Shown: piece after piece, positions 4,810 through 29,898 of the stretch
How the letters are laid out: each line of letters begins with the position of its first letter
Position numbering within the stretch: the first letter of the stretch is position 1
Origin: a bacterium
GTDB lineage: Bacteria; Patescibacteriota; Minisyncoccia; Phycocordibacterales; VMGT01
DNA length: 38,961 nucleotides
Direction of reading: 5' to 3'
NCBI GenBank assembly: GCA_030697645.1
Contig: JAUYPI010000020.1
Span: 1-38,961, forward strand
The notes under the pieces: model-generated
Told to the model about the DNA's origin: nothing
The model's input: only the letters and a program-made list of their open reading frames with translations
Database searches by the model: none
Made by a program: the position numbers and the translations under genes

Positions 4810-4812
4810 GCC

Positions 4813-4832
4813 ACATATCATATGTGATATGT
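4813..4832. promoter_or_regulatory. Operator-like palindrome over the murA-like start
   Basis: A perfect 8-4-8 inverted repeat ACATATCA-TATG-TGATATGT lies between the promoter (4859-4887) and the preferred start codon (4809). Its size and symmetry fit a dimeric XRE-family repressor site. The encoded protein itself carries an XRE-type HTH, so it is the obvious candidate ligand. Confidence 0.6.
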
Positions 4833-5162: not shown

Positions 5163-6602
5163 CTAATCACCCAATGAAAAGCTGTCCTTTACGTATCGCA
5201 ATAGCATTTTTGCATCATTCTTCGCGTCGTCTGACCCAAGAACAATGATTGCAACGGGGCGTTTTTGGTTGTCAATTTCTATTTCAAAAACCGCGAGCAT
5301 GCCGTGAGAGGCCGAAGAGCTTAACCCAGTCTTGCCGCCAACCATGCCCTCTACCCCCGATATTTGATTGAGATTCTGAAGAGTATCATACGTCGATGGA
5401 CCATACACGGTACGATTCTCGTTGCCCATGCTCATATGTAAAATAAAACTGCGATTGTAGTAAAGGTATTTAGCAAGGTGAAACAAGTCCTCCGCGGTAG
5501 ATATATTTGCGGCCAGCACTCCGGAAGTATCTACGAAATTGGAGTCGCTCATCCCGAGTGCTTCCGATTTTGTATTCATCAGTTTTATAAATTGATCTTT
5601 GCCCACAGGAGCGGTTACGGCGACCGCCGCTTCATTAGAAGATTCTACAAGCAGGAGCGACAATAAATCGAGGACGGAAACGCGATCATCTTCTTTGAGA
5701 CGCGGAATACTGGTCGAAGCCAGCATTGAAGAATCTACGGTTACTTCTCGTTCCACATTTATATATTCAACCGCAACCAGCGCGGACATGAGTTTTGTGA
5801 TTGACGCAATGGGACGTTTCTCGCGAGGCTTATTTTCTGTAAAGACAAAATTATTTTCTAAATCTGCCGCAAGGTACACGACACTACCCGGCAGCAGGTT
5901 TTTGTTTTTGTATGTGGGAGCTTTTTTGTCGCCGTTAAAAGATTCTTCAAACACCAGCACCGGAGTGTCTCTGTCGGCAAGGCGGTATAGTTCTTCCGCA
6001 TCGGTAAGCGAAACCCGAATACAGCCGCCAGAGTATGTCGCGGGTGTTGGTGAACCGTCAGGATAGTGCGTGGGGCCGTGAATAAAAAAGTTGCCTTGAA
6101 ACTGCATACTCCACGGCATAAACACGCGGCCGAAAGAAGAAAAATGATTTTTTTCTTTTGAGCTGATTTTATACAGTCCCGCTGGCGTTTGCCACCAGGA
6201 ACCATCTCGTCCCTTCGTTTGTATTGGCGCCTCTTTCAAGAGTTCTCCATTCCTATACAGTCGAATGATCATCGCGGAAAGATCGGCTTCTATGAAACTC
6301 GTGCCTTGAGAAATAAATTCTTCCTTGGTTTTCTGAAAGAAATGAGCGTTTTGCAAAGCCGGCCAACTACCATAAACAAGATCGATTTTTTCACCTTCGC
6401 TGCCTTGAAGCATAATCGTGGAACCATTGTCCGTATTCGCATAGAGAAAAATTGAAACACCGACAACGAACATCAAAAAAGCCAGAAGAGGATAGGAGAT
6501 TATCGTTGGGATATGCCTATGAATAAAATGAACGTGCACCACGTCATTTTCCCTGGTCTCTGATTCTTCAAATTCTTTTTTTGTTTCGTCGCTAAACGTC
6601 AT
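5163..6602 (-). CDS. Fusion of L,D-transpeptidase (YkuD) and D,D-carboxypeptidase (S11)
   Basis: This 479-residue envelope enzyme has a cytoplasmic N-terminus, a membrane anchor (about 31-55) and two extracytoplasmic catalytic domains. The first (about 103-218) is a YkuD L,D-transpeptidase with FFIHGPTHYP (His175) and the catalytic Cys194 in YSGGCIRVS. YkuD enzymes form 3-3 peptidoglycan crosslinks or attach proteins. The second (about 240-475) is a penicillin-binding S11 peptidase: nucleophile Ser267 in ASITKLM, SSN at 321-323 and KTG at 424-426. The two activities are normally separate proteins, and the carboxypeptidase makes the tetrapeptide donors that the transpeptidase uses. The minus-strand promoter TTGTAC/17/TAGTAT (6637-6609) sits 6 nt before the ATG, so the mRNA may be leaderless. 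The gene is divergent from an M23 endopeptidase and shares its lower GC. Confidence 0.93.
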   Translation of the reverse strand: MTFSDETKKEFEESETRENDVVHVHFIHRHIPTIISYPLLAFLMFVVGVSIFLYANTDNGSTIMLQGSEGEKIDLVYGSWPALQNAHFFQKTKEEFISQGTSFIEADLSAMIIRLYRNGELLKEAPIQTKGRDGSWWQTPAGLYKISSKEKNHFSSFGRVFMPWSMQFQGNFFIHGPTHYPDGSPTPATYSGGCIRVSLTDAEELYRLADRDTPVLVFEESFNGDKKAPTYKNKNLLPGSVVYLAADLENNFVFTENKPREKRPIASITKLMSALVAVEYINVEREVTVDSSMLASTSIPRLKEDDRVSVLDLLSLLLVESSNEAAVAVTAPVGKDQFIKLMNTKSEALGMSDSNFVDTSGVLAANISTAEDLFHLAKYLYYNRSFILHMSMGNENRTVYGPSTYDTLQNLNQISGVEGMVGGKTGLSSSASHGMLAVFEIEIDNQKRPVAIIVLGSDDAKNDAKMLLRYVKDSFSLGD

Positions 6603-7648: not shown

Positions 7649-7700
7649 CAAAGTTTCCCGAGACACGGCGCAATCTGCGTACAACCCCCTGCGCTCTTGG

Positions 7701-7730
7701 CGTATCGTAGTTCACGCGCGTGTCAAGAGT
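7701..7730 (-). promoter_or_regulatory. Third, degenerate copy of the TTGACA-CGCGTG promoter-like motif
   Basis: The minus strand carries CTCTTGACACGCGCGTGA, nearly the same as the -35 and spacer at 17739-17767, but no good -10 lies at 16-18 nt. It points away from the macroglobulin gene, toward the 3' end of the M23 gene. It is probably a decayed copy or a regulator site rather than an active promoter. Confidence 0.3.
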
Positions 7731-7805
7731 CCGGCCCGGCCTTGAGAGCGCGCGCGGGAGTTGTGTGTTGTGCACATAGCAGCCGTGTTTGTGCGGACAG
7801 GCACC

Positions 7806-7814
7806 TGCTACAAT
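7806..7814 (+). promoter_or_regulatory. Extended -10 promoter of the macroglobulin gene
   Basis: TGCTACAAT is an extended -10 element located 9 nt before an in-frame GTG (7823) and 20 nt before ATG 7835. No convincing -35 accompanies it, which is usual for extended -10 promoters. It favours a start at 7823 or 7835 over the upstream end of the open frame (7697). Confidence 0.5.
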
Positions 7815-7834
7815 GTAGAGCAGTGAACGAGGAA

Positions 7835-10800
7835 ATGAATAACAATTTCCTGGCGCCCGGGAGAGCACGGGCAGGGCTGCTTTGGTGCCTGCGACTGCTC
7901 CGTGGCCCACATGCCATTCGGGCCCTCTTCGTACTGGCGGCGCTTATCATTATTGCTAGTGCCGGCTATTTTCTCCTCGGTGACTTTGGGCGTCGAGGAG
8001 AGAGGCCCCGCGCCTACAGCGCGCCGTTCTCGCTCGTGCCGGACAAAATTTCGCAGAGCGCGGCGATTGCGATCTCGCTCCCGAAGGGCGTCACGATCGC
8101 GCTGGCCGAGGCGAGCGAGCGCATCAGTTTTGAGCCCGATATAGCCGGCACCTGGCTCACTCCGGAGGATAGCGCGGGAGAGAACGAGCGGCTCGTTTTC
8201 GCGCCACGGGAGCCCCTCAAGCTCGGGCTCTATTATGCGGTCAGCGTGAACACGGGAGCCGAGACCTTGCGACATGATTTTCTTGTAGACGAGGACCCCG
8301 CGATCGTGGCGGTATTTCCGGCGGCAGGTTCCGAGGCGCCGGAAACTACTTCGGTCACCGTCATTTTCAACCGACCAATGGTCCCGCTCACCACTCTCGA
8401 GACGCTCGATACTGCAGACATTCCCGTTGAAATTGTGCCGGGAACGCCGGGGAAGTTCAAATGGATCACCACACGAAACCTCCAGTTTATACCGGAAACG
8501 CGACTCATGCGCTCCGCGAATTATACGGTGCGCGTGAAGCAGGGGCTGGTATCCATGGACGGTTTGCCGGTCGCGGGCACGGAGCAGAAGTTTACGACGC
8601 GCCATCTTCGCTACGAGCAGATGGACAGTGGGCAGCACGGATTTGCCGAGCCGGTGCGAATCCGGTTCAACCAGCCGGTTGACATTGAGAAGACGCGCGC
8701 GCGAATTTCCGTAACCAAAATCGAGAAATCGGCTCTACCGGTCGCGGGGCAATCCGATAAGGTGCCCGCGGTCACTCCCGGGACGATGCTCCAGGCGCCG
8801 CTTCCGTTCATAGTCACCTATGGAGAGCGGAGCGTGTATAACGATGAGACCGAAAAATCAGAGGCATTTTTGGACACGTCGGTGCTTGAGATATATAACA
8901 GCGAGGATCGGTTCGGGCGCGAAGGACTTTGGGATTTCGACACCTCATATAGCATTTCGGTGAGCGGCGCATACCCAATCGACGGCGATGTGACACTCTC
9001 CGAGGCACGCCAGAGCAGTATATTTATTCCCGAGGTGATCACGTCGCTGTCTGCAGAATCCGACCGCAGCACGTTTGTCGAGCCGAACCTTTTTGACCCC
9101 GAGGGCACCCTCATTGTCGAGTTCGCGGAGGTAATAGATAAAGAGGCGAGCACGATCAAGGCGGAAGGGTTGCTCCGCGCGGAGTACGGCGAGACGTGCG
9201 CGGCAGATGAGGTCGGCAGGGCATATTATGGGAACGAATGCAAAAAAGTTCCCGACAAGAGCTCTCTCGTACTTCATTTCGACCCCCGGGCGTTTGGCCG
9301 CGGCGAGTCGGTGCCCGTTCGTTTCGAGAAGATTGTTAACGGTGACGGCTTACTGCTGAACGCGTCGCCGATCCAAAAAACGATAACGACGTATCCCAGC
9401 CTCGTTATCTACAAGATGACGCCGCAGGATGGCGCCGCTCGCGCCGCGCTCACTGAGCTTGTCGTGTGCACGTCGAATCCCCTCGCGCCGGCCACTGAAG
9501 AAAATTTTGCCGAGCGACTGCAGAGTAATTTTACCGTCGGGCTCTGGAATTGGCAGGCTCCCTGGCGTGTGGGAATCGCCGACAGCCGTGCTCCGTGTGC
9601 TCCCGGGCAGTTCGTTAACACAATCCGCTACGGCCTCGTGCCGGAGTATCCCTATCGATTTACGCTGAAACTTATCGACGATTTCGGCGAAGTCGCAAGC
9701 ACCGCGCTCGCTTTCACGAGCGGCTCGATCGAGCGCACGGCGCGCAAATTTTTCCATCTCAACAGAATGTATAATGCGACCTCGCCGGAGAAAACGAAAT
9801 TCACCTACGCAGTGGAGAACCTCGAATACATGGACCTCTCTATCTGCGAGGTATCTGCACAGACGATGCTCCGCTACAGCGAGGGTCGTCCGGAAGCGAC
9901 GGTCACCCCCTCCTCGCTCCCATGCCTCACGAGTGAGACGCACCGCGTGGAGTTGCCGAGGCAGTATTGGACGCGCAATTTTTTTCAGATTGACCTCGCA
10001 CACTACATCCCGGACGCGCGTGCTCGCGATCACTCACGGCTCGGACACTTCGTGCTCACGCTGAGCCACCCTGAGTATCGGCGGCTTGAGTGGGTGTACG
10101 AGAGCGCCAAGGGGCGGTATAAGGATACGCCCCGGGAGCAGATTTTTGAGCGCACGTTTGTGACCGTCACAAACCTCGCGGTTGCGGAGAAAAAAGTGAA
10201 CCGTCCCATAAACCGCTATGCGACAGACCCGCACAAAGACCTCACTGATGCGGCGCTCACCGGAGACCAAAATCTCTACTGGGTGAGCACGTTTGGAGCG
10301 CTTGCGCCGAAGACAGGCGCGAAGGTTGTGCTCTATACCCTCAACGAGGGTGTGCTCCGTGAAGTTGCGAGGGCGGAGACCGACGGCACGGGTGTCGCAC
10401 GAGCTCCTGCCGTCGTGAACCTCTTTGGTGCCGTGGTGAGCGCCGGGAGCGACAGCGCCATCGTCACCGAACACACTGACCGGCTCGCGTGGGCGTCCTC
10501 GGCGGTTTCGTCCGATAGGACATACATCTATACTGATCGGCCGATCTATAGGCCGGGCCAGGAGGTGTTTATAAAAGGAATCTACCGCGAAGGATACGAC
10601 ACAGACTACAGAATCCCCATTGGTAAGAAAAGCACGATCGCTGTCCGCAACGCTCGCCGCGAGACCGTCCTCGAGACGGAAGTCGAGCTTAATGAGTTCG
10701 GTACGTTCACCGCCCCCCTGCGGCTGCCCGCGGATGCTGCCCTGGGTACCTACTCAATCGGGGCGTTCGGCGGCTGGGCAGTGTTTGACGTTGAAGAATA

Positions 10801-13800
10801 TGTGTCTGCCGCGTTCAAGATCGAAATGCGCACAGACAAGGAGGAGTATATCGCAGGCGAGAGCATGCGCCTTGCGGTTGATGCGGACTATTACTTTGGC
10901 GTGCCGCTTGAGGAGGGGAGCGCGGTCTCATACACTCTGACGAGCCAGTCTTACTTTTTTGACCGATACAAGGGGCGCGATTTTGACTTTGGCAGCAGCT
11001 GGTATTACGACTACGATGGCGGCTATGGAGACCGGTTTGTACTCCGCGGCTCGACGGTGATGAATCAAAAGGGCGAAGCTCTGATAGAGCACCTGCTCAA
11101 TTTCGACGAACTTTTCAAGGAAGAAGCGCGGAAACAAAGTAAAATTTTCGTGGTAAACGTGACGGTGAAAAATCGCAATGGGCAGTCTGTCTCGGCGCAG
11201 AAGTCGTTTATCGTGCATCGCGGCGAGTTCTACCTTGACGTCCGCGCCGAGCCGCGCTTTGTCGGCGTGGGCGATTCGGCAGAGCTCGGAGTTAAGTCGG
11301 TGGATACAGCGGGCAAAGATGTCTCAGTGCGTGACGGCGTGATCGAGGTGAAGAAAATTACCTGGGAGAGTTTCAGGCGGCGTGAGGTGGACGGTGGCTA
11401 TTACTACCGATCGGAGAAAAAGGAAGAAGTGATCCGTGAGATACCATTTCGTACTGGTCGCGATGGGGTATTTGCGGGAGCGGTGACTCTTGAGAGAGAA
11501 GGGCAGTATGAAATTGTCGCGAGGGCGCTCGATGATCGCACCAACCGCGTCGAGGCAATCGAGAGCGTCTATGTCCACGGACCGCGCGCCGTTTCCGTGC
11601 GGCCGACGAACAACGAGACGCTCGACCTTGCGGTCGAGACGGATACGCTCGATGTCGGCGGCGTCGGGCGCTTCACGATCGAGTCGCCCTATCCGCGGGC
11701 AAAAGCACTCGTTGCGCTTGAGCGCGGAAAAATTTTCACCTACGAGGTGATTGACGTTGATCGTAATTTTCTCGAGTATACGTTCCCGGTCAAGGACGAG
11801 TACGTGCCGAATATCTACGCAACGGTTCTGCTCCTTTCGCCGGATCCGGCAATAAAGTATGGCCAAGTGAATTTCAAGGTGAACACGACGGAGCGGGAAC
11901 TCGACATCGAGGTGACCCCTGACAAGCGCACCTATCTTCCCGGGGAGGAGGTCGCACTCTCAATTGCGGCTCGCGACAGGCACGGCCGGCCAGTTGCCGC
12001 TGAGCTCTCGGTTGCCGTTGCGGACCTCTCGGTCCTGGCGCTCAAGGGCAATCCAAAGAAAAATCCCGTGGCGTTTTTCTACGCAGGTTCGCCCCTTGCG
12101 GTCGTCACATCGTCGAACGTGAAAAATATTCTTGAAGAGAAAGAGGTGCCGAGCGGCACCAAAGGCGGTGGAGGCGGCGACCCCAAGGACCTCGCGCGTC
12201 GCAAGCGCGGCGTCTTCAAAGATACGGCGCTCTGGGAAGGAATGGTGCGAACGGATGCATCCGGGAGAGCGAGTGTTCGCTTCACGCTTCCGGACAACCT
12301 GACGGCCTGGCAGATTGAGGGCCTCGGTCTGACGCGGGAGAGTGCGTTCGGCGTTGATTACGAGGAGATTACGGCACGGAAGGAACTCATGGTAGTGCCG
12401 CTCCAGCCCCGCTTTATCATCCCGGGTGATAGGTTCACGATCGGCGCGCAGGTATTTAACCAGACGACCGCAGACCAAGCGCTCGATGTCACCCTCGTCT
12501 CACCGACGCTCGAATTTCCGGGGAAACAGGAACTCTCCACCCATATCCGCCGCTCTGAATCGGCGACATTCTATTTTCCTGTCCGTGCGCCGCAGACTGT
12601 GCAGGATGGGAAGCATACGTTCACCCTCTCGGCACACAATCGCTCGTATGAAGATACGGTCGAGCAATCGATTCCGATTACGCGCAATGATACCTATGAG
12701 GCGGTCGCGACGGCTCACTTCACTCGCGAGGCGAGCGCGCGTGAGTACGTCTACCTGCCGGAGAATATCGAGCGGGATCGCGGCGGCGTCGGCGTCAGCG
12801 TCTCGGGTACGCTTGCGGTGTTCCTCTCGGATGCACTCAACTATCTTGCCTCCTACCCCTACGGTTGCAGCGAGCAGATCGCGAGCAAACTCTCCTCGGT
12901 CGCCGTCCTCAAGCGCGGGCTTAATCTTGAGAATGTGGGGGATGCATTTACGCCGAAACCGATTGTCTTTGACGGTCGCGAATACACGATAGACGAAGTG
13001 GTCGCGATCGGCCTCGCGCGCATGTATGAAAACCAGGCCGCTTCGGGCGGATTCACCTATTATGCGACCACAGAGCCGAGTTTCCACCTCACACTCTACG
13101 TGGTCAATACGCTCGTTGAGCTCGAGGCGGCGGGGTACACCATTAATCAGAATGTGCTCACCCGTGCGGCGCGATACCTACACACCACTCTGGTCCAAAC
13201 TCCTGATTTGAGCACGAACAAAGATACGATCATTCTCGCCAGCTACACCATTCTGCGCGTGCCGGGATCCGGTTTGTCTCGCGAGAAGGCTGATCTCGAG
13301 GCCCGTATTCAAAAAATCGTCGAAGACAAGCAGTATATTCGTGAGCACATAAACAACACCTCGCTCACGCACCTCGCGATGATTCTCTCACGTCCGTACC
13401 CAGCAGAGATCTCGATTGCGAGTAGCCGAAAAGACGAAGTGTATAAGACTCTCGAGAATCGCATTGACATTGACGCGCGCGGCGCGTTTCTCAGCGTGCA
13501 CCAGGGCAGGCTTCTGTGGGAGTACTATGAGACGCCGATTAAAGACACGGCGCTTCTCCTCAAAGCCCTGGTTGCGGACCGTCAGGAATCGCCCGTCGTG
13601 GACAAAGTGCTCCGCTGGCTCCTCAAGAGCCGCGCTAAAGACGGCGCCTGGGGGTCAACGAACAACACCGCCGCCGTCGTTGATGCGATGACCGATTTTC
13701 TTTCATGGAAGCGGGAGACGGAGTCGGATTTTGAGCTAAAACTCTCACGGGGCACTGATGCGGTGCAGACGTTTGATTTTGGCCCGGAGACGATACTCAA

Positions 13801-14656
13801 GACATTTTCCGCGTTTTTGCCGGTGGCCGATTTCACCCCGGGCACAATCGAAACGCTCAATTTTGACAAAAAGAATCGCACGACGACCGCGCCGAATACG
13901 TTTTACTATGACATGTCGCTTAAATATTATCTGCCGATTGACACGATTCCGCCGCGGGATGAGGGTTTTACGATTGAGCGTGAATTGTATCGGCTCGATG
14001 ACCAAGAGATGGAGGAGCCGGTGGCCGAAGGGAAAGTGGGAGACGTGCTCCGCGGGCGACTCACGGTTACCGTTTCAAAACCGAGAAATTTTGTAGCGGT
14101 GGAGGACTTTATTCCCGCCGGCACCGAGCTCGTGAACCTCAAGCTCGCGACTGAGGACCAGTCGCTCGCGGACGAGCGAGCGGGGAGCCGCGGGCATGAT
14201 AGCGGCTATGACTATTATGAAGGGGGTGAGTATTACGACGGAGGCGAGTATTACGATGGCGGCCGCGGTGCTCTCGACCATCCGTTTTCGACTGAGGTGC
14301 GTGCGAAAAACGATCGCGGCCCCTTTGCTCTATTGCGCACCATTGTCCGTTCACTCTCGCCGCAGCTCTTTGTGGCGTCGGTGCCGAACCGTCGCAAACT
14401 CGAAGCGCTCGAGGACGAAGCATATAGCCAGAAAGTCGCACGGCATCGCGTCCTTCGTCCTGACGCCGAGGAACTCCATGACGATCGGATTTTCCTGTTC
14501 ACGGAAGCACTCGCCCCTGGCGTGTACACCTATGATTATTTCCTTCGCGCGCTCATTCCAGGCACCTACCACCACCTGCCCGCCATCGTGAGTGAGATGT
14601 ACTATCCTGAAAACTTCGGCAGGACGCGAGGAGAGTATTTCCGCGTCGTCGAGTAA
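7835..14656 (+). CDS. Giant alpha-2-macroglobulin family lipid- or membrane-anchored protease trap
   Basis: The protein is about 2273 residues, against about 1650 for the E. coli YfhM type. A hydrophobic anchor (IRALFVLAALIIIASAGYFL) is followed by Big_5/MG-like beta-sandwiches. The MG2 hallmark YTDRPIYRPGQ is at about residue 899. The A2M signature GMVRTDASGRASVRFTLPDN is at about 1468, and the thioester motif PYGCSEQ at about 1678 (TGC at 12866). The reactive Cys and Gln are both intact, so covalent trapping of foreign proteases in the envelope is plausible. A Tyr/Gly/Asp repeat (YYDGGEYYDGG, near 14214-14270) interrupts the C-terminal region. ATG 7835 follows GAGGAA and the promoter at 7806-7814; GTG 7823 is an alternative. 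A PbpC-type protein lies downstream, the classic partner of bacterial macroglobulins. Confidence 0.93.
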   Translation: MNNNFLAPGRARAGLLWCLRLLRGPHAIRALFVLAALIIIASAGYFLLGDFGRRGERPRAYSAPFSLVPDKISQSAAIAISLPKGVTIALAEASERISFEPDIAGTWLTPEDSAGENERLVFAPREPLKLGLYYAVSVNTGAETLRHDFLVDEDPAIVAVFPAAGSEAPETTSVTVIFNRPMVPLTTLETLDTADIPVEIVPGTPGKFKWITTRNLQFIPETRLMRSANYTVRVKQGLVSMDGLPVAGTEQKFTTRHLRYEQMDSGQHGFAEPVRIRFNQPVDIEKTRARISVTKIEKSALPVAGQSDKVPAVTPGTMLQAPLPFIVTYGERSVYNDETEKSEAFLDTSVLEIYNSEDRFGREGLWDFDTSYSISVSGAYPIDGDVTLSEARQSSIFIPEVITSLSAESDRSTFVEPNLFDPEGTLIVEFAEVIDKEASTIKAEGLLRAEYGETCAADEVGRAYYGNECKKVPDKSSLVLHFDPRAFGRGESVPVRFEKIVNGDGLLLNASPIQKTITTYPSLVIYKMTPQDGAARAALTELVVCTSNPLAPATEENFAERLQSNFTVGLWNWQAPWRVGIADSRAPCAPGQFVNTIRYGLVPEYPYRFTLKLIDDFGEVASTALAFTSGSIERTARKFFHLNRMYNATSPEKTKFTYAVENLEYMDLSICEVSAQTMLRYSEGRPEATVTPSSLPCLTSETHRVELPRQYWTRNFFQIDLAHYIPDARARDHSRLGHFVLTLSHPEYRRLEWVYESAKGRYKDTPREQIFERTFVTVTNLAVAEKKVNRPINRYATDPHKDLTDAALTGDQNLYWVSTFGALAPKTGAKVVLYTLNEGVLREVARAETDGTGVARAPAVVNLFGAVVSAGSDSAIVTEHTDRLAWASSAVSSDRTYIYTDRPIYRPGQEVFIKGIYREGYDTDYRIPIGKKSTIAVRNARRETVLETEVELNEFGTFTAPLRLPADAALGTYSIGAFGGWAVFDVEEYVSAAFKIEMRTDKEEYIAGESMRLAVDADYYFGVPLEEGSAVSYTLTSQSYFFDRYKGRDFDFGSSWYYDYDGGYGDRFVLRGSTVMNQKGEALIEHLLNFDELFKEEARKQSKIFVVNVTVKNRNGQSVSAQKSFIVHRGEFYLDVRAEPRFVGVGDSAELGVKSVDTAGKDVSVRDGVIEVKKITWESFRRREVDGGYYYRSEKKEEVIREIPFRTGRDGVFAGAVTLEREGQYEIVARALDDRTNRVEAIESVYVHGPRAVSVRPTNNETLDLAVETDTLDVGGVGRFTIESPYPRAKALVALERGKIFTYEVIDVDRNFLEYTFPVKDEYVPNIYATVLLLSPDPAIKYGQVNFKVNTTERELDIEVTPDKRTYLPGEEVALSIAARDRHGRPVAAELSVAVADLSVLALKGNPKKNPVAFFYAGSPLAVVTSSNVKNILEEKEVPSGTKGGGGGDPKDLARRKRGVFKDTALWEGMVRTDASGRASVRFTLPDNLTAWQIEGLGLTRESAFGVDYEEITARKELMVVPLQPRFIIPGDRFTIGAQVFNQTTADQALDVTLVSPTLEFPGKQELSTHIRRSESATFYFPVRAPQTVQDGKHTFTLSAHNRSYEDTVEQSIPITRNDTYEAVATAHFTREASAREYVYLPENIERDRGGVGVSVSGTLAVFLSDALNYLASYPYGCSEQIASKLSSVAVLKRGLNLENVGDAFTPKPIVFDGREYTIDEVVAIGLARMYENQAASGGFTYYATTEPSFHLTLYVVNTLVELEAAGYTINQNVLTRAARYLHTTLVQTPDLSTNKDTIILASYTILRVPGSGLSREKADLEARIQKIVEDKQYIREHINNTSLTHLAMILSRPYPAEISIASSRKDEVYKTLENRIDIDARGAFLSVHQGRLLWEYYETPIKDTALLLKALVADRQESPVVDKVLRWLLKSRAKDGAWGSTNNTAAVVDAMTDFLSWKRETESDFELKLSRGTDAVQTFDFGPETILKTFSAFLPVADFTPGTIETLNFDKKNRTTTAPNTFYYDMSLKYYLPIDTIPPRDEGFTIERELYRLDDQEMEEPVAEGKVGDVLRGRLTVTVSKPRNFVAVEDFIPAGTELVNLKLATEDQSLADERAGSRGHDSGYDYYEGGEYYDGGEYYDGGRGALDHPFSTEVRAKNDRGPFALLRTIVRSLSPQLFVASVPNRRKLEALEDEAYSQKVARHRVLRPDAEELHDDRIFLFTEALAPGVYTYDYFLRALIPGTYHHLPAIVSEMYYPENFGRTRGEYFRVVE

Positions 14657-14717
14657 AAATGTGCGTAGATTTCGAAAGGGTCGAGCGTGTTCTGTCGGGC
14701 GGTACCGCGCAAATTTT

Positions 14718-15524
14718 ATGGGCGTTCAATCATTACGATACATACTCCGTAGAGTATTTATTTATGGAGCGCTGATATATATCGGGCTAGGAATAATATT
14801 GTCTCTCTTTCAAAATCGATATATCTATTACCCCCCAAAGGGGCAAAAGTTTGAAGCATGCCCCGCGTTTCGTACCGCCGAGCAGGTGCATGTGCAGGGG
14901 ACACGATTCTATTACAAGAAGCACTCTGATACCCTTGTCGTTTTTTACCACGGTAATGCCGGTTCGGCGTGCGATCGGGCGTTTCTTGCGGGCCTTTTTG
15001 AGCGTCTCGGCCTTTCGTATCTATTCGTAGAATACACTGGCTACGGAGGCGACGGATTGCGACCAAGCACCGGCCGACTATTCGCTGACGTGGTGCATGT
15101 GAACGAGTTTCTCCGACCGCTTGATTATAAGGTGCTCATTCTCGCCGGGGAGAGTATTGGCACCGGTGCCGCGCAATATCACACGACACTTACACGGGCG
15201 GATAAACTGCTGCTCGTAGCACCCTTTCCAACGCTTGCTCGTGTCGCGCGGCGTCACTTTCCGTTTGCCATCTATCCAGTTTCGCTGCTTTTGCAAAAAG
15301 ATTTCGATAATCCTTCGTGGCTTTCGAAGTTCAAGGGTGAACTCATGATTATTCACGGCAGTAAAGACACGGTTATTCCGATCGCACTCGGCAGAAAACT
15401 TTTTGATGCTGCGTCAGCGGCGAGGGGGGAGTTTGTTGAGATTGAGAACGCGGGGCATAACGATATCTATGACAATCACACAACGGAAGAACGCATGGAA
15501 AAATTTTTACGTATCGAAGGATAA
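14718..15524 (+). CDS. Membrane-anchored alpha/beta hydrolase (serine hydrolase)
   Basis: This protein of about 268 residues has an N-terminal membrane segment (RVFIYGALIYIGLGIILSLF) and an alpha/beta-hydrolase domain resembling the BEM46/FrsA-like group. Visible elements are the oxyanion loop FYHGNAGS, the nucleophile elbow LAGESIGTG (Ser in GxSxG), the acid in IIHGSKDTVIP and the catalytic His in NAGHNDIY. The substrate is unknown; lipid or acyl-ester hydrolysis in the envelope is possible. The open frame extends upstream into the macroglobulin gene, but ATG 14718 just before the hydrophobic segment is the sensible start, 61 bp after the macroglobulin stop. It probably shares that transcript. 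It ends 13 bp from the convergent pbpC stop. Confidence 0.88.
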   Translation: MGVQSLRYILRRVFIYGALIYIGLGIILSLFQNRYIYYPPKGQKFEACPAFRTAEQVHVQGTRFYYKKHSDTLVVFYHGNAGSACDRAFLAGLFERLGLSYLFVEYTGYGGDGLRPSTGRLFADVVHVNEFLRPLDYKVLILAGESIGTGAAQYHTTLTRADKLLLVAPFPTLARVARRHFPFAIYPVSLLLQKDFDNPSWLSKFKGELMIIHGSKDTVIPIALGRKLFDAASAARGEFVEIENAGHNDIYDNHTTEERMEKFLRIEG

Positions 15525-15537
15525 AATATGCGTGCGG

Positions 15538-17676
15538 CTACTCGAGCATTATTGTTATGTAGATCGTCTCTGTAACGGAAGCGCTTGTTGCGCTGATTGT
15601 GTAGGTGCCCGGCGCGATCGGGGTCCAGGGGAATGCTCTCCCGTTCCCGATATACACCCCATTTACCCGCCATTCCACCGCTTCTCGGGCTTCAAGCGGC
15701 ACGGTCATGCCGGGCTCAAAGAGGAGCACATCACGATCGTGCGGGTGAGTGATGAACGTCGCGTCGTCTCGGAGGAGCAGCATGCGCGTCTCTTCGTAGT
15801 TGTCGCCTGGTAGACCGTAGGCGACACCCTCATCGGTCGACCTGAATTCCTGCAACCCGTCGAAGTCGAATGACGTGTTGCGATTGTATGCTGAAGTTAG
15901 CATGATTTCCATCGCGTCGTGCCAGATGCGTCCGGCACCGGACTGGCCGGAGACGTGCGGCATAGGGGTATTGTCGTGATTGCCTATCCAGACGCCGACG
16001 AGGAAATCAGGGGTGTAGCCGATAGTCCAGCTGTCGTGGTAATCCCGCGACGTGCCAGTCTTGAGCGCGTAGTGCTCCGTGGGCAAATTGAGGAAGCTCT
16101 TGATGCCGAATTGCTCGACGCCGGTCGCACGGTCCGAAAGTATGCGGTTCAGGAGCGCAACGTACGGCGTGTCTGCCACGCGTTTTTCCTGCACAAACTC
16201 CCGCTCCATCGGCGGCGTTGTGATCGACACTAATTTATTATCATCCGTATCGCGGGAGATGATGAGCGGCTTCAGTATGCCGCTGTGCGCGAAGAGCGTA
16301 TAGTAGTGCGAGAGCGTGAGGAGGTCCATCTCGAGCCCGCCGAGGGCGATGCCGAGCGAGTATGACTCGAGGGGCTGGAGTGGCTTGAATCGAAGGGTCT
16401 CGGTGAGGAAATCGTAGAAGAGAGGCAGACCGACGTACTCGAGCACTTTGACGCTCGGCACGTTGAGGCTCTCTGACAGGGCGGCATGAAGCGTCACGTC
16501 TCCTCGGTAGCGGCCGTCGTAATTTTTCGGATAAAACTCGAATCCCGTTCCGATTTCGTATTTATACTCCCGATCCTCGACGAGCGTATACGGCCGTGCG
16601 CCTTTTTCGAGGGCCTTGAGGTAGAACAGGGGTTTTGCCGTGGAGCCGATGGGGCGCGGTTCAAGCGCCATATTTATCTGCGCGCCGGGGATGGCGGCGC
16701 GTGGGTACGGAGAACCGACGATTGCGAGCAATTCGTTTTCCGGAAGTTTGATGACGACGATCGCCCCATTTTTTGCGCCTTCAAACTGACTCGAGAGTAG
16801 ATGTTCGCGAAGCAGTGCCCGGAGGCGCTCGGTGAGTGCACCCTCGAGCGTGAGAGTGCAGAGTTTGGTGCAGCGAGCGCCAAACGCGCTCGCTTCAAAC
16901 GCTGTATCTCGCTCGTACGCGCGCTCTTGCTTGAGTGGGAGGCGCGGACTCCGCGCGCTCTCGCCGTTTTTTGTCGTAAATGTTTTTCCCGCGCGAGCGA
17001 GGAGCGTCGCCGCGGCGCGCTCATTTTCGATCGTACCGGGATACCGGATACTCGGTTTCCCAATGGCGGCGACGAGCGTCGCAGCTTCTTCGCTCGAGAG
17101 CGCCGCGGCGGCTCGGCCGAAGTAATACCTGCTTGCTTCCTCAACTCCCTGCGCCTGGTTGCCGAAATACGCGCTGTTCACATACATCGCGAGAATTGTT
17201 TTTTTGGACGACCAGAGCTCGAGCGAGAGAGCGTAGAGCGCCTCGAGCGCTTTGTGCATGAGCGTGCGTTTGTTCTCGGTCTTGAGGAGCACTTTGACGA
17301 GCTGCTGGGTGAGCGTGCTCGAGCCGTAGCGTTTTCCGGAGTGTACGAGCGCGAGCGCGTCGCGCGCGATGCTCGCGGGGTTCGCGCCGACGTGGTAGTA
17401 GAAAAGGCGATCCTCTTTTTTGAGAAGGAGTTGTCTAAAGTTTTCCGGCGGCGTCTCAATCGGCTGCATATAGTAGCCGCTCTCGTTCGGCGAGAGCTTG
17501 ATGAGTACCCCGGCGCGATCGAGTATCCGCGGTGATTCGAGTTTTTGATACCGTGCGCGGAGATTACCGGCGAGCACGAACGTCACGATGATCACAGCGC
17601 AGGCACCACAAGCACAGACGGTGTATAGTTTTGTTGTTCTTAGACGTTGCAGTGCGCGTTGAAAAAGTACGTTCAT
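15538..17676 (-). CDS. pbpC: Bifunctional class A penicillin-binding protein, PbpC (PBP1C) type
   Basis: This is a 712-residue peptidoglycan glycosyltransferase/transpeptidase with a membrane anchor at about 18-36. The GT51 domain (about 55-225) shows the catalytic Glu88 in KEDRLFYYHVG, GSSTLTQQLVK at 118-128 and the KALEALYALSLE helix. The transpeptidase domain has Ser345 in GSTAKP, SLN at 403-405 and KTGT at 539-542. The C-terminal ~70 residues (about 640-712, ending VEWRVNGVYIGNGRAF...) match the BiPBP_C Ig-like domain typical of PbpC. In E. coli, pbpC lies next to the macroglobulin gene yfhM. Here the two are in one neighbourhood but on opposite strands, with a hydrolase between. All active-site motifs are intact. 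The start at 17676 is supported by the promoter at 17739-17767. Confidence 0.95.
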   Translation of the reverse strand: MNVLFQRALQRLRTTKLYTVCACGACAVIIVTFVLAGNLRARYQKLESPRILDRAGVLIKLSPNESGYYMQPIETPPENFRQLLLKKEDRLFYYHVGANPASIARDALALVHSGKRYGSSTLTQQLVKVLLKTENKRTLMHKALEALYALSLELWSSKKTILAMYVNSAYFGNQAQGVEEASRYYFGRAAAALSSEEAATLVAAIGKPSIRYPGTIENERAAATLLARAGKTFTTKNGESARSPRLPLKQERAYERDTAFEASAFGARCTKLCTLTLEGALTERLRALLREHLLSSQFEGAKNGAIVVIKLPENELLAIVGSPYPRAAIPGAQINMALEPRPIGSTAKPLFYLKALEKGARPYTLVEDREYKYEIGTGFEFYPKNYDGRYRGDVTLHAALSESLNVPSVKVLEYVGLPLFYDFLTETLRFKPLQPLESYSLGIALGGLEMDLLTLSHYYTLFAHSGILKPLIISRDTDDNKLVSITTPPMEREFVQEKRVADTPYVALLNRILSDRATGVEQFGIKSFLNLPTEHYALKTGTSRDYHDSWTIGYTPDFLVGVWIGNHDNTPMPHVSGQSGAGRIWHDAMEIMLTSAYNRNTSFDFDGLQEFRSTDEGVAYGLPGDNYEETRMLLLRDDATFITHPHDRDVLLFEPGMTVPLEAREAVEWRVNGVYIGNGRAFPWTPIAPGTYTISATSASVTETIYITIMLE

Positions 17677-21732: not shown

Positions 21733-23103
21733 ATGGCTTCTTCCCTGCGAGATTCGTTGTCCTATACAACGCGCGCGTCATGTCGCGTATGCGGCGCGGC
21801 GGCATTCCTCGATGTGCTCTCACTCGGGGAGTTGTTTGTTTCTAATTTTATTGACGCAGGCCTCTCGGGTACGCGCGCGCCGCTTGAGCTCGTACTCTGT
21901 GCGAGAGAGCGGGGCGGCTGCGGACTCGTGCAACTTCGGCACAGCGTGGATCAGGATGCGCTCTACCGCGCGTATTGGTACCGCTCCGGCACAAATGTGA
22001 GCATGCGTAGCGAGCTTGCCGCGATTGCTCGGAGGGCAGAAGAGATCGCGGTGCCCCAGCGCGGTGATATCGTGCTCGACATCGGCGCCAACGACGGCAC
22101 ACTCCTTCGGAGTTACCGAGCGCGCGGCGTCATCCGCGCGGGCTTTGAGCCCGCGCGGAATTTGCGCGTGGATGCCGAGGTCGGCGGCGCGAGCATCATC
22201 AGCGATTTTTTTAACACACGATCATTTTTTGCGCGTTTCCCGGCGCGGCGCGCAAAAGTCGTAACCGCGATCGCGATGTTCTATGACCTTGAGGATCCGA
22301 ACGCCTTTGTTGCCGATCTTGCCTCGGTTCTCGCGCCGGATGGACTCGCGATTATTCAGATGAGCTACTTGCCGCTCATGCTCTCACAGAATGCATTCGA
22401 TAACATTTGTCATGAGCACCTTGAGTATTATGCGCTCGGGTCGCTCGAATTCCTTCTCGCACGGCATGGTCTCGAGATATTTGACGTTGAACTTAACGAG
22501 GTCAATGGCGGCAGTTTTCGCACCTATGTGCGTCATCGTGGAGCGCGGGCTCCTTACACGACGGACGGGCACGAGCGCGTTGCGGCGCTCCGGATTGATG
22601 AGGTTCTGCTCGCTCTCGAGACGCCCGCACCGTATCTCGCCTTTGCTTCGCGCGTGGAGCGTGTCAGGGCTGAGCTCGTCAGCTTCCTCGCGCGCGAGGT
22701 TGCGGCAGGAAAGCAAATTTATGTCTATGGCGCTTCAACGAAGGGGAATACGTTACTTCAGTATTTCGACCTCGACACACGCCTCATTAGAGGAGCGGCC
22801 GAGCGCAACCAACTGAAATGGGGCTTACGCACCGTCGGGACGGACATCCCTATAATTTCCGAGGTTGAAGCGCGCTCCGAGAATCCTGACTACTTTCTCG
22901 CTCTGCCGTGGCATTTCATGCCCGAGTTTCTTGAGCGCGAACGTACATTCCTCGAACGTGGGGGGAAGTTTATTGTGCCTCTCCCGGAGTTCCGCGTGGT
23001 CGGGCTTGACGAAATTCGAAATACGAATATCGAAATCCGAAACAATATCGAAATCAAAATGTTCCAATGTCCGAAACACGAGCGTCGTGTTTTGAGCGTT
23101 TGA
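21733..23103 (+). CDS. SAM-dependent sugar C-methyltransferase
   Basis: The 456-residue protein has the three-part layout of NDP-hexose C-methyltransferases such as TylC3 or NovU. These are an N-terminal Zn-binding part (CRVCG at 17-21 and a later CGL), a class I SAM fold with VLDIGANDGTLL, and a C-terminal part with YVYGASTKGNTLLQYFDL. The conserved FDNICHEHLEYYALGSLEFLLARHG segment is present. It would add a methyl group to a keto-deoxysugar nucleotide, giving a branched sugar. The native protein probably ended near PLPEFRVVG. The last ~28 residues (IRNTNIEIRNNIEIK...) are encoded by a palindromic repeat, so the stop has been displaced. It is first in the polysaccharide locus and directly behind the promoter at 21643. 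Confidence 0.88.
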   Translation: MASSLRDSLSYTTRASCRVCGAAAFLDVLSLGELFVSNFIDAGLSGTRAPLELVLCARERGGCGLVQLRHSVDQDALYRAYWYRSGTNVSMRSELAAIARRAEEIAVPQRGDIVLDIGANDGTLLRSYRARGVIRAGFEPARNLRVDAEVGGASIISDFFNTRSFFARFPARRAKVVTAIAMFYDLEDPNAFVADLASVLAPDGLAIIQMSYLPLMLSQNAFDNICHEHLEYYALGSLEFLLARHGLEIFDVELNEVNGGSFRTYVRHRGARAPYTTDGHERVAALRIDEVLLALETPAPYLAFASRVERVRAELVSFLAREVAAGKQIYVYGASTKGNTLLQYFDLDTRLIRGAAERNQLKWGLRTVGTDIPIISEVEARSENPDYFLALPWHFMPEFLERERTFLERGGKFIVPLPEFRVVGLDEIRNTNIEIRNNIEIKMFQCPKHERRVLSV

Positions 23104-23157
23104 ATTTTGGTCATTCGGATTTGTTTCGAATTTCGTGCTTCGATATTCGGATTTCAA
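23011..23157. repeat. Word-type palindromic element 1 (CGAAAT words)
   Basis: The left arm is made of variants of CGAAATNCGAA and the right arm of their complements (TTTCGAATTTCG, CGATATTCGGATTT), around the core CACGAGCGTCGTG (23077-23089). The left half and core are translated as the tail of the methyltransferase. Confidence 0.8.
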
Positions 23158-23199
23158 GAAGACGGGGGACATCAATGTCTCGGATTTGTTATCCAATGT

Positions 23200-24666
23200 A
23201 TGGAAACAGGGCGGCGCAGAATCAATTACGGCGGCATGTTTGCCGGGCTGCTCTGCGTTGCGCTCGGTATATTTTTGGGCGCGGCGACCATGCGGGTTCT
23301 CATGGCGTACATGCTCGTCGGCGGCGACGATTATCCTCCTCAGGTAGTTCGCGGACTACATCGAGAGGTGAGCCAAGTGAGACTGAATAATCCAGCACGT
23401 ACCCCCGAACCTCGCCTCATCGCTCGGGAGGGCGGGGCACGAGGCATTTCCTACGGCCTCGCTGCGCTTTCTGGTCGCGCCCTCGCGTCTACGAGCGGCG
23501 TATTTTCGGAGACAGAAGTATATGCTCGCGACTCCGTGGCGAAAATGCCGGACGAGCGTATCCCTCCGGGACCGTTTCGCACGGGAGCCACAGCGCCGAT
23601 TTTCGACGACGGTCTTACACCAGGTTGGGATGACTGGTCTTGGAGTGTAGAGCGCGAGCATGTCGCAGGGAGTGATGCGCCAGCCGGGGAGCGCTTACTC
23701 GAGGCGCGGTTTCTCGCGCCGTGGGCCGGACTTTATTTTCACACCGCTGGTTTTGCACCGTACGTTAATGACGTGCTCGCGCTCTCGATTAGGACGGATG
23801 ACGAGACCCCCCCAATTCTTTCAGTCGAGTTTTTCGAGCAGCCGGGCCAAGGACTCGGCGCGGTTGCTCTCGCGAGCTATGTAGCTGGGGGCGTACTCTC
23901 GCGCGGGGTTTGGGAAGAGGCGCGGATCCCCCTCGCTGATCTCCGCGCCGCGTGGGGGACGACGACTGGTTTTGCCATTGTCAGCGACTCGCGAGCGAGC
24001 GTGATGCTCGACCAGATTTACATTACTCCTGGGATCGGCTCGACGCGCTTCCTCCCCATGCCTCCGTCGCCGGTGCAGCCCGTTTTACTCGCGGACGTTT
24101 TCGGTGCGCCATCGCTCTACCGTGCGGCGCCTGCCTGGAGTGACTGGAAGAGCGCGTACGGCGAGCACCGCTTTGAGGACGGAGTGCTTCGCATTGAGAC
24201 AAAACAACCGGAAACTGCGACGCTGATCGAGCTTGTGGGGAGCGGGCACTGGCGCGATTACGAGACAGCGATGCGTCTCAATTGGCATCGTGGGGCCTCT
24301 ACGATTGAAACGATTGTGCGATTTGCCGATGAGCGCAACTATCTCGCGTGCGCGTGGAATCTGCACAGCACACACCTTCATGCGGAAATCAGGAACATTC
24401 ATGACGGCGAGATGAGCCAGGTTTCGAGCTGGAGCGGCGCTCTGCCTCTGCCGTATTTTGAGTCGTGGCGCGATATTGAGATCGGCGTGCGCGTTGTCGG
24501 AGATAGCATCGCATGTCTCCATAATGGCGAGGCGGTACTCAGCGGCACCATTCTCGCAGACGCCCCTCTGCCCGAGCGCGGCGGCATTGCGCTCAAAACG
24601 TGGGAGCCGGAGGCGGGGTACACGATACTTGCTATTGAAGACGTCGAAGTGTTTGAGGCGCGGTAA
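23200..24666 (+). CDS. Membrane-anchored protein with two carbohydrate-binding-like beta-sandwiches
   Basis: The protein is about 488 residues. One N-terminal transmembrane segment (MFAGLLCVALGIFLGAATMRVLMAYML) is followed by a linker. A jelly-roll resembling CBM/CIA30-type modules (about 105-275, with ISIRTD- and IPLADL-like strands) follows. The second jelly-roll, of LamG or 3-keto-disaccharide-hydrolase (DUF1080) type, ends GGIALKTWEPEAGYTILAIEDVEV. No catalytic residues are assigned. Position just before the processive synthase suggests it holds or guides the glycan outside the membrane, as BcsB does in cellulose secretion; this is inference. ATG 23200 is preferred because the upstream part of the frame is repeat DNA. 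Confidence 0.65.
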   Translation: METGRRRINYGGMFAGLLCVALGIFLGAATMRVLMAYMLVGGDDYPPQVVRGLHREVSQVRLNNPARTPEPRLIAREGGARGISYGLAALSGRALASTSGVFSETEVYARDSVAKMPDERIPPGPFRTGATAPIFDDGLTPGWDDWSWSVEREHVAGSDAPAGERLLEARFLAPWAGLYFHTAGFAPYVNDVLALSIRTDDETPPILSVEFFEQPGQGLGAVALASYVAGGVLSRGVWEEARIPLADLRAAWGTTTGFAIVSDSRASVMLDQIYITPGIGSTRFLPMPPSPVQPVLLADVFGAPSLYRAAPAWSDWKSAYGEHRFEDGVLRIETKQPETATLIELVGSGHWRDYETAMRLNWHRGASTIETIVRFADERNYLACAWNLHSTHLHAEIRNIHDGEMSQVSSWSGALPLPYFESWRDIEIGVRVVGDSIACLHNGEAVLSGTILADAPLPERGGIALKTWEPEAGYTILAIEDVEVFEAR

Positions 24667-27233: not shown

Positions 27234-27246
27234 ATTGAATCCTCTC

Positions 27247-29898
27247 ATGTATAAGCGTGCAACAATTTTACTTCTTGCCATTCTTGCGATCGCCGCCATG
27301 GCGCACGGCGTGAACATGTTCCACTTCCCGTATTATGAGAACGACGAGGGGACATACCTCTCGCGCGCGTGGTCCCTGCTTCGCGACGGGTCACTCTCAC
27401 CCTACACGTATTGGTATGACCATGCGCCGGGTGGCACATTCCTGCTCGCCTTTTGGGCAATAATATCCGGAGGATTTTTTACGTTCGGCCAAACCGCGAT
27501 TGACTCTGGACGCGTATTCATGCTCGTGCTTCACGTCGGAAGCGTCGGTCTGCTTTTTTACATCACGCGGCGGCTTGCGGGGACTCTCCGTGCTGCGACG
27601 ATCGCTGCGTTTCTTTTTGCGCTCTCGCCGCTCGCGCTCTACTACGCGAGGCGCGTGCTCCTCGACAACATGATGACGTTTCTTGCGCTCGGCTCCGTGG
27701 CACTTCTCCTTCGGGAGCGGTTGACGCTCCGCACGGTGCTCGGGAGTGCACTACTCCTCGGCCTCGCAATCCTCACAAAAGAGAACGCAATTTTTTTCAT
27801 TCCACCGTTTTTGTACCTGCTTTTCACGCGCACCGATGCGGCGAACCGGCGTTTCAGTATCGCACTTTGGTTTACAGCATGGGGCAGTATCGTCGCGTCG
27901 TATTTTCTCTACGCCCTGCTCAAGGGCGAGCTCTTTGTCGGAAGCCGAGCAGGGGAGGCAGGAGCACACGTGAGCCTCATCGGCACGCTTGCGATGCATC
28001 TCGGTCGAGGCGCCGCGGCTCCCTTCTGGAGCAGTGCCAGCGACTTCGCCGGAGCGTTTCTCACGTGGGTCGAGCGCGATGCCTTCATTATTATATTTGG
28101 CGCGATGGCTACGCTCGCGGGCGTCGTATTGGCCGTGAGGCGCCCGGCGTTTCGCTCTGCCTCATTCCTCTCGCTCTCAGCGTGGGCGTTCCTGCTGCGC
28201 GGCAAGCTCGTGCTCGATTTTTACGTGCTGCCGCTTTTGCCGCTGCTCTCACTCGTGATTGCGATGTGCTCTGAGGAGCTGCTCCTCTGGCTTGGGAGGC
28301 TTTCCCAACGTACTCGCCGCATCAGGGCGGGAGCCGCCGTCATTTTTTTTCTCGGCACAGTTGTGGGCATAGCCGTTCTTTTTCCGCATCCATTGTCTAT
28401 ATTTGCGCCATATACGCGCAACGAGACAAGAAACCAGCGCGAGGCGGTTGCGTATATAAAGGAGCACCTTCTCGCTCGGTCTTTCATTGCGATAGATCAA
28501 TATGCCTATCTTGATCTCCATGATACACGCTCATCCTCCGGTGAGCGGGTGTTTCCAAACGCGCATTGGTTTTGGCAGATTGAAACGGATCCTGCGGTGC
28601 GCGTCGGCGTGTTTGGCAACGATCCGCGAGCGCTCGAGTATGTCGCGCTCTCCCATGAGATGGTGCGGCAAATGCAGGGCGGCGGGCAGGTGTTTCTCCG
28701 TGAGGCGCTCGCGCACGCCGATCTCATTAAAGACTGGACGGCGAGCACGACAAGCTACCTTGACCTTGAGGATGACGTCAGCACGAACGGCGACTGGGCG
28801 CAGCTCTACGAAGTGCACGACGAACGGCGGATCGAACTCGAGAGAGCATGGACGTACTACAAAGATGCGTTCATTAAAAATTACGGGCAAGTTGTGGATC
28901 CGTGGAATGGCATCACGACATCCGAGGGTCAGGCATACGCGCTCTTGCGCGCGGTCTGGATGGATGACCGCCCGATGTTCGACGGTCTCTTCGCGTGGAC
29001 GCGCGACCACCTTGAGTTCCGTGGCGTAGACCATCTGTTTTCCTGGCGTTGGGGGAGAGGGGAAAACGGTGTTGAGCGCGTGCTTGATTCTGAAGCCGCG
29101 TCCGACGCGGATCAAGATATCGCGCTTGCGCTTCTTCTCGCGCATCGGAGGTGGGGTGAGGATGCGTACCGCACTGCGGCAGAGGAGATAATCCGGGATA
29201 TCTGGCGGAGGGAGGTAGTGCGGGTCGCTGGCAGATACTATCTTACGGCAGGTCCGGGTGCAGCGCGGCCGGATGGGTACCTTCTTAACCCCTCCTACTT
29301 ATCACCCGCCGCATACCGACTTTTTGCAGAAGCCGACCCAGAGCACGACTGGCTCGCGCTTGCGAAGGATTCCTACGCGCTTCTTGAGCGTCTCGGGAGC
29401 GAGTCTGCCCGAGGCAATCTGACGGGGCTCCCGCCGAACTGGACGCTTCTCGACGGAGAGACGGGAGCACTCCTCTCTGCCGCGCACTACATCAGCACAC
29501 ACGCAGATGCGTACGGATACGATGCATTTCGTGCGCTCTGGCGGGTGGCGCTCGATGCGCTCTGGTTTAAAGAACCGCGCGCGGAGCGTTACCTTCGATC
29601 GGTCGCGCCGTTTTTTGAGCGCGAGTGGCAAGAGCACGACACTTTTGCAAGCGTGTATCGTCGCACGGATGGAGTACGGCTTCTCGTGCACGGCGACCTC
29701 GCTCCTGTCGCAGGCGCCATCAGCGCACTCTTCCGAACGAACCCGGACCTCGCGCACGAGATCGAACGGCGCATTTTTGACGCTACGTTCAACGCCGAAG
29801 GTTTTTGGGGTGAGCGCACGAGCTATTACGATCAAAACTGGGCGTGGCTTGCTACTGCTCTCCTCTCGGGTGAGACGCGAGACGAGTGGGGGAAATAA
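27247..29898 (+). CDS. Fusion of a GT39-type membrane glycosyltransferase and a GH8 endoglucanase
   Basis: The protein is about 883 residues. The N-terminal ~400 residues are a multi-spanning GT39/PMT_2-type transferase. Its first loop, YYENDEGTYLSRAW, carries the Asp-Glu expected of ArnT/PMT-like enzymes, which take sugars from polyprenyl phosphate. The C-terminal part (about 530-880) is glycoside hydrolase family 8: WNGITTSEGQAYALLRAVW with the catalytic-acid Glu at about 560, LFSWRWGRG, SEAASDADQDIALALLLAHRRW with the candidate base Asp, LNPSYLSPAAYRLFAEAD, and GLPPNW. GH8 includes BcsZ, the endoglucanase required for cellulose secretion. ATG 27247 is chosen; the upstream TTG lies in repeat DNA. 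Together with the preceding GT2 fusion it gives a likely beta-glucan-type export system in which trimming or transfer is built into one protein. Confidence 0.88.
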   Translation: MYKRATILLLAILAIAAMAHGVNMFHFPYYENDEGTYLSRAWSLLRDGSLSPYTYWYDHAPGGTFLLAFWAIISGGFFTFGQTAIDSGRVFMLVLHVGSVGLLFYITRRLAGTLRAATIAAFLFALSPLALYYARRVLLDNMMTFLALGSVALLLRERLTLRTVLGSALLLGLAILTKENAIFFIPPFLYLLFTRTDAANRRFSIALWFTAWGSIVASYFLYALLKGELFVGSRAGEAGAHVSLIGTLAMHLGRGAAAPFWSSASDFAGAFLTWVERDAFIIIFGAMATLAGVVLAVRRPAFRSASFLSLSAWAFLLRGKLVLDFYVLPLLPLLSLVIAMCSEELLLWLGRLSQRTRRIRAGAAVIFFLGTVVGIAVLFPHPLSIFAPYTRNETRNQREAVAYIKEHLLARSFIAIDQYAYLDLHDTRSSSGERVFPNAHWFWQIETDPAVRVGVFGNDPRALEYVALSHEMVRQMQGGGQVFLREALAHADLIKDWTASTTSYLDLEDDVSTNGDWAQLYEVHDERRIELERAWTYYKDAFIKNYGQVVDPWNGITTSEGQAYALLRAVWMDDRPMFDGLFAWTRDHLEFRGVDHLFSWRWGRGENGVERVLDSEAASDADQDIALALLLAHRRWGEDAYRTAAEEIIRDIWRREVVRVAGRYYLTAGPGAARPDGYLLNPSYLSPAAYRLFAEADPEHDWLALAKDSYALLERLGSESARGNLTGLPPNWTLLDGETGALLSAAHYISTHADAYGYDAFRALWRVALDALWFKEPRAERYLRSVAPFFEREWQEHDTFASVYRRTDGVRLLVHGDLAPVAGAISALFRTNPDLAHEIERRIFDATFNAEGFWGERTSYYDQNWAWLATALLSGETRDEWGK

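Follow-up and report, generated by a model that had tools for sequence, protein, structure and literature searches.

What use could a membrane glycosyltransferase make of an endoglucanase fold carried on the same polypeptide? The question is raised by an open reading frame of 883 codons on the forward strand of the window, the 38,961-nucleotide stretch of DNA analysed here. By translation the frame has zero internal stops, and an alternative TTG start lies 12 bases upstream in the same frame, at 27235. Pfam searches matched the PMT_2 profile PF13231 to residues 59-196 (E = 1.4e-8; 35.6 bits against a cut-off of 26.1) and Glyco_hydro_8 (PF01270) to residues 534-795 (E = 1.3e-49; 169.5 bits against a cut-off of 24), and the three GH8 motifs named in the original prediction fall at residues 559, 619 and 681. 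With both profiles above cut-off and the frame open throughout, the original prediction of a GT-C transferase and a GH8 domain in one frame holds, and a genome search found a single GH8 and a single PMT_2 in this genome, both within this ORF. Its 'GT39-type' label is borderline, since PF13231 passes but the PMT profile PF02366 scores a marginal 22.5 bits, just under its cut-off of 22.7. The two-part description also needed amending: both halves are present, but residues ~391-530 form an outer domain that belongs to the GT-C itself and occurs without GH8, as in the relatives L067 and L068, the latter from a genome (G529) without any GH8. The fusion is real, and this single protein consists of a GT-C transferase, complete with its outer domain, and a GH8 domain (Table 1).

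Table 1. Positions of the fused gene, its domains and key residues, and of other genes mentioned in the text (in the window unless a locus is named)
Feature	Position	Strand	Basis
EPSP_synthase-family ORF	3283-4821	-	
YkuD ORF	5166-6602	-	
Alpha-2-macroglobulin-like protein	7697-17676		
Methyltransferase	21733-23103	+	Methyltransf_13/23/14 domains
ORF just 5' of the system	23107-24666	+	
DPMS-like GT2 (aa 1-238) + processive BcsA/PgaC-like GT2 synthase (aa about 296-718), 734 aa	24888-27092	+	Pfam, PDB matches, motifs
Fused ORF, 883 aa	27247-29898	+	Translation
GT-C transferase membrane domain, residues 1-390	27247-28416	+	PMT_2, hydropathy, AF2
DE motif D33/E34	27343-27348	+	
GT-C outer alpha/beta domain, residues 391-530, linker to GH8	28417-28836	+	AF2; GH8-less relatives
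GH8 domain, residues 531-883, (alpha/alpha)6 barrel	28837-29895	+	PF01270, aligned residues, model
E560	28924-28926	+	Aligns with CelA E95
D620	29104-29106	+	Aligns with CelA D152
D759	29521-29523	+	Aligns with CelA D278
Fused gene in two ORFs	L037:1457-4053		
Fused gene in two ORFs	L142:6372-8969		
GH113 protein	L072:9621-11348	+	
GH8 with LPG_synthase_TM	L077:8601-10823	-	PF03706
GH8 with polytopic N-terminal half	L078:9309-11495	-	
GH8 with predicted TM helices, 912 aa	L082:6530-9265	-	
Fusion with degraded GT-C site	L146:1-2502	-	

Predicted folds and active sites of the two halves

Hydropathy analysis places ten windows of this protein, and ten or eleven in most of its relatives, over the threshold, giving about 10-11 predicted transmembrane helices for the GT-C membrane domain. 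When an AF2 model of residues 1-528 (pTM 0.87) was compared with known structures, it matched the GT-C enzymes Pmt4 (Z 26.8), OST STT3 (Z about 26) and ArnT (Z 25.5), and the modelled region has the GT-C fold with its DE motif. The motif, D33/E34, sits in the first outer loop and is invariant in 17 aligned GT-C sequences; across 27 fused proteins D33, E34, R135, D140, K178 and E179 are almost invariant. ArnT and the protein O-mannosyltransferases share this predicted fold and the position of the DE motif but are only 12-15% identical to the GT-C half, and we know of neither with a glycoside hydrolase domain.

The GH8 part of the full-length model superposes on CelA (1kwf; Z 41.4, 327 aligned residues, rmsd 2.1) and on BcsZ (Z 37.3), and the three catalytic positions aligned with C. 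thermocellum CelA are those that, following established GH8 literature, we take to be the acid (E560), the -1 subsite residue (D620) and the base (D759). The triad is thus intact, and from the conserved residues both GT-C and GH8 activities are predicted. Membership of the BcsZ family was rejected, since the NCBIfam equivalog NF008305 scores 145.4 bits against a cut-off of 299. The full-length model has a pTM of only 0.60, leaving the mutual placement of GT-C and GH8 in it uncertain. The DE motif in the first outer loop and an odd helix count would put the C-terminal half outside the cytoplasm, and the same location is indicated for GH8 because several unfused GH8 relatives that we checked bear one N-terminal transmembrane anchor or signal.

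Distribution of the fusion and its synthase neighbours

A search for this architecture in other genomes, as the original prediction proposed, found it in about 10 Chloroflexia genomes and at 16 loci of Patescibacteria type. Scanning genome contigs yielded eleven full-length relatives (L030-L040) and a stand-alone GH8 (L041), while fused genomes numbered 8 of 379 in the phylum search and about 10 of 158 in the Chloroflexia search. Within the order to which the window belongs, only the window genome has the fusion (1 of 197 searched) and the other GH8 carriers are unfused. The worry that an assembly or frameshift error had merged two separate genes, for which nothing in the window speaks although one homologue (L037) occupies two overlapping frames and another (L142) is interrupted, can be put aside with near certainty, as many independent genomes have the full-length fusion in a single open frame, with ~36-47% identity. 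For the two broken homologues themselves, sequencing error and decay are indistinguishable. One relative, L033, lies on a contig labelled Methylophilaceae (JACMMS010000049.1), yet its fused protein falls inside the Patescibacteria clade, and the contig is probably mis-binned.

Directly upstream of the fused gene, a second two-domain protein has Pfam matches to PF00535, PF13641 and PF13632. Its residues 5-230 match the structure of P. furiosus dolichol-phosphate mannose synthase (DPMS, 5mlz; 9.4e-38) and residues 381-618 match BcsA (4hg6; 2e-11), and the synthase half carries DAED, TED and QRTRW, the signature of processive synthases. The DPMS-like domain should, by its sequence, make a lipid-linked donor. 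In this pair of genes a lipid-sugar maker is joined to a chain maker, and a lipid-sugar user to a chain cutter. Against NCBIfam models the synthase half scores better as PgaC/IcaA than as cellulose synthase, far under both cut-offs, so the backbone of the polymer may not be glucan.

Fused genes in both Patescibacteria and Chloroflexia, including those of OHK40 and L140, directly follow a gene for a homologous processive GT2 synthase; the fused loci without it are L146, where it is absent, and L144, where the contig end cuts the locus. In OHK40 the genes for DPMS, a GtrA-synthase fusion and GT-C-GH8 are consecutive, and by its gene content this cluster appears to combine a synthase with every part of a multi-component glycosylation system. 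Both L135 and OHK40, relatives from the Chloroflexia, have GtrA and the synthase in one protein. The window genome has one GtrA copy, on another contig and adjoining another DPMS-like gene, and G264 and G291 gave no GtrA match.

Association of the three activities extends beyond the fusion. We considered all other Patescibacteria loci with a good GH8 and enough flank, and in every one of these 23 the GH8, a cellulose-synthase-like GT2 and a PMT_2 GT-C (about 500 aa) are adjacent separate genes, which argues for a GH8 role in surface-glycan biosynthesis. While the GH8s of the two types are about 40% identical, their GT-Cs and synthases are only about 20-25% identical and form clearly distinct subfamilies by identity and tree, so the partnership of GH8 with a synthase and a GT-C exists in two separate settings. 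Membrane tethers of other kinds also occur on GH8. In L077 the polytopic N-terminal half is LPG_synthase_TM and L078 is a close relative of it, both adjoining synthase, GT-C and DPMS; in L082 about ten predicted transmembrane helices with no Pfam name precede a GH8 whose catalytic residues are altered, and a synthase gene adjoins; and in L073 a 7-TM N-terminus is found.

Loss of the GH8 triad among the fusions

Although the window protein retains E560, D620 and D759, only 12 of the 27 fused proteins have the complete triad and 15 have it altered. On the tree this loss needs five changes, four of them forced by well-supported branches. In two of the 15 the base alone differs (Asp to Asn), and some other route may leave these two active. 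Of 31 separate GH8s, 30 have an intact triad (Fisher p = 1e-5 against the fused, uncorrected for relatedness). A second GH8 with an intact triad is present in the cluster at five triad-less loci (L073, L137, L138, L139 and L141) and at no locus whose fusion has an intact triad (0 of 12; p = 0.047, likewise uncorrected), while in G263, G464 and G528 the degenerate fused GH8 is the only GH8 in the genome.

The fold itself has been kept, with the structural residues W584, W636, F693, W702 and D770 conserved at 100%. This pattern of conservation points to a triad-less GH8 retained for a role other than cutting, and such domains are probably acceptor-holding or structural modules only. We had expected the cleft aromatics to be kept uniformly in the triad-less fusions, which is ruled out by the variation of W600, Y564 and W732. 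We therefore claim no shared binding specificity for these domains, and the case for all of them binding one chain is weaker. Since the triad is lost while the GT-C residues stay, transfer would be independent of a cut by the same protein. One relative, L146, has the reverse of the usual pattern, with a degraded GT-C site (D33 to G, K178 to H) and the GH8 triad kept.

A proposed role in a surface-polysaccharide system

We consider it reasonably probable that the fused protein works on the outer face as the finishing enzyme of a small surface-polysaccharide system that depends on a synthase. Judging by its family and motifs, the upstream synthase would use a nucleotide sugar to build and extrude a beta-glycan that most likely resembles beta-1,4-glucan, and on the cytoplasmic side the DPMS-like domain would charge polyprenyl phosphate with a sugar. 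A flippase would then turn the lipid-sugar outward, a role that the GtrA found in the genome could fill. The GT-C, for which fold, DE motif and context all point to transfer on the outer face, would move the lipid-borne sugar onto the emerging chain as its likely acceptor. Held at the membrane, the outer GH8 would grip the chain, and with its residues and fold the window copy could also cut it in the manner of BcsZ. The fusion would keep decoration and trimming on one strand. Donor sugar, backbone, acceptor and coupling are inferred, and the flippase gene lying outside the window counts against the proposal.

How far the two halves depend on each other is less clear. GH8 could be a BcsZ-like editor that only trims or releases the polymer and uses the transferase as a convenient anchor, the GT-C acting on something unrelated, for instance a protein or lipid. 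The variety of GH8 tethers (a single transmembrane helix, LPG_synthase_TM, 7-TM and 10-TM) fits such an arrangement, yet GT-C, synthase and GH8 are neighbours in all 23 unfused loci and a synthase adjoins the fused genes, an adjacency by which the GT-C belongs with the same glycan, and we regard the anchor explanation as unlikely. Slightly less likely still is one coupled reaction in which the nascent glucan is cut by GH8 and its new end then receives a sugar from the GT-C. Channelling is what a fusion would favour, the window protein has two intact active sites and 11 other fusions retain the GH8 triad. However, 15 of 27 fusions have lost the triad through at least four independent changes with the GT-C residues in place, five have an intact separate GH8, and the GT-C with its outer domain exists in G529 without any GH8. 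Of the mechanism first suggested for this locus, a lipid-sugar transferase tethered to an endoglucanase therefore stands, with a GT-C, a GH8 placed outside the cytoplasm and a BcsA-like synthase that links them to a glucan-type polymer, but the cut that creates the decorated end finds no support in the form proposed. Holding or positioning the chain would explain the fusion at least as well as cutting it.

A bolder version of the finishing-enzyme proposal, which we put forward tentatively and hold to be rather less probable than its simpler form, is that the GT-C captured a cellulase fold as an acceptor-holding module, that several lineages turned this into a pseudo-hydrolase and passed cutting to a second GH8 or dropped it, and that the window protein still does both. 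If true, it would define a class of transferases that decorate glycans and whose acceptor domain derives from a hydrolase. It is very improbable that the protein is a degradative cellulase of an ordinary scavenging pathway, fused by accident: the GH8 family name and the counting of CPR GH8 genes among cellulases (PMC12153355) would suit this, but the membrane tether and the conserved synthase, GT-C and DPMS neighbours disfavour it, as do recurrence of the fusion in two phyla and retention of the fold where the triad has been lost. Our results instead suggest that Patescibacteria GH8 genes mostly serve biosynthesis.

Several known systems resemble parts of this arrangement. In multi-component transmembrane glycosylation systems (CsbB/GtcA/YfhO, GtlA/GtcA/GtlB, and the GT136 ribofuranosyl system of the Citrobacter O antigen), a DPMS-type GT-A makes polyprenyl-P-sugar, and together with a flippase this serves a GT-C, of the PMT-2 type in GtlB, that decorates outer polymers such as teichoic acids and O antigens (PMC8035078, PMC11127046). 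Some GT-Cs (AftD, Emb and ORF12) carry a glycan-binding module, one of which bound acceptor yet was not essential for transfer (PMC8035078, PMC11127046). The window differs in having a processive GT2 synthase as partner, with the DPMS domain fused on, and in the extra module of its GT-C, which is a GH8 hydrolase fold and not a beta-sandwich CBM. Bcs cellulose synthesis likewise pairs a processive GT2 synthase (BcsA) with an extracytoplasmic GH8 (BcsZ) of the same triad and fold, but the window synthase lacks PilZ (Pfam scan, E up to 1), no BcsB was seen nearby and the unit includes a GT-C; membership of the Bcs system was rejected on the absence of PilZ. Listeria Pss exopolysaccharide, likened here by description alone, also combines a polymer-making glycosyltransferase with a pruning hydrolase, PssZ, which we take to be a GH8 and which to our knowledge is not fused to a GT-C. 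There, PssC makes the polymer and PssZ prunes the growing chains (PMC10620520).

Both halves are known families. Within the open-access PMC literature on GH8-GT39/PMT, Patescibacteria/CPR GH8 or cellulose synthase, and BcsZ fusions, we found the fusion undescribed, and found no description there of its two-phylum spread or repeated triad loss, which is weak evidence that all three are new. The fusion brings a GT-C transferase, a processive synthase and GH8 together in a single compact pathway, both in bacteria of about 1 Mb genome size, whose surface glycans are little known, and in Chloroflexia, some relatives being culturable. How smaller GT-C enzymes recognise polymer acceptors is a question raised in the field (PMC8035078) that the GT-C-GH8 fusion makes testable.

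Several other genes lie near the fusions. The ORF just 5' of the system has one predicted transmembrane helix and a sub-threshold 3keto-disac_hyd hint, with zero Pfam matches above cut-off and zero PDB relatives, so we leave it outside the system, although its product could be a glycan-binding partner. Before it lies a methyltransferase of the type C-methylating deoxysugars. Directly downstream of the fusion in L072 is a GH113 protein, a family that includes beta-mannanases, and the backbone there might contain mannose. Elsewhere in the window, single ORFs join an EPSP_synthase-family enzyme (MurA-like) to an N-terminal HTH_3 DNA-binding domain, and a YkuD L,D-transpeptidase to a Peptidase_S11 D-Ala-D-Ala carboxypeptidase, and the gene for a 2319-aa alpha-2-macroglobulin-like protein lies close to that of a BiPBP_C-containing penicillin-binding protein.
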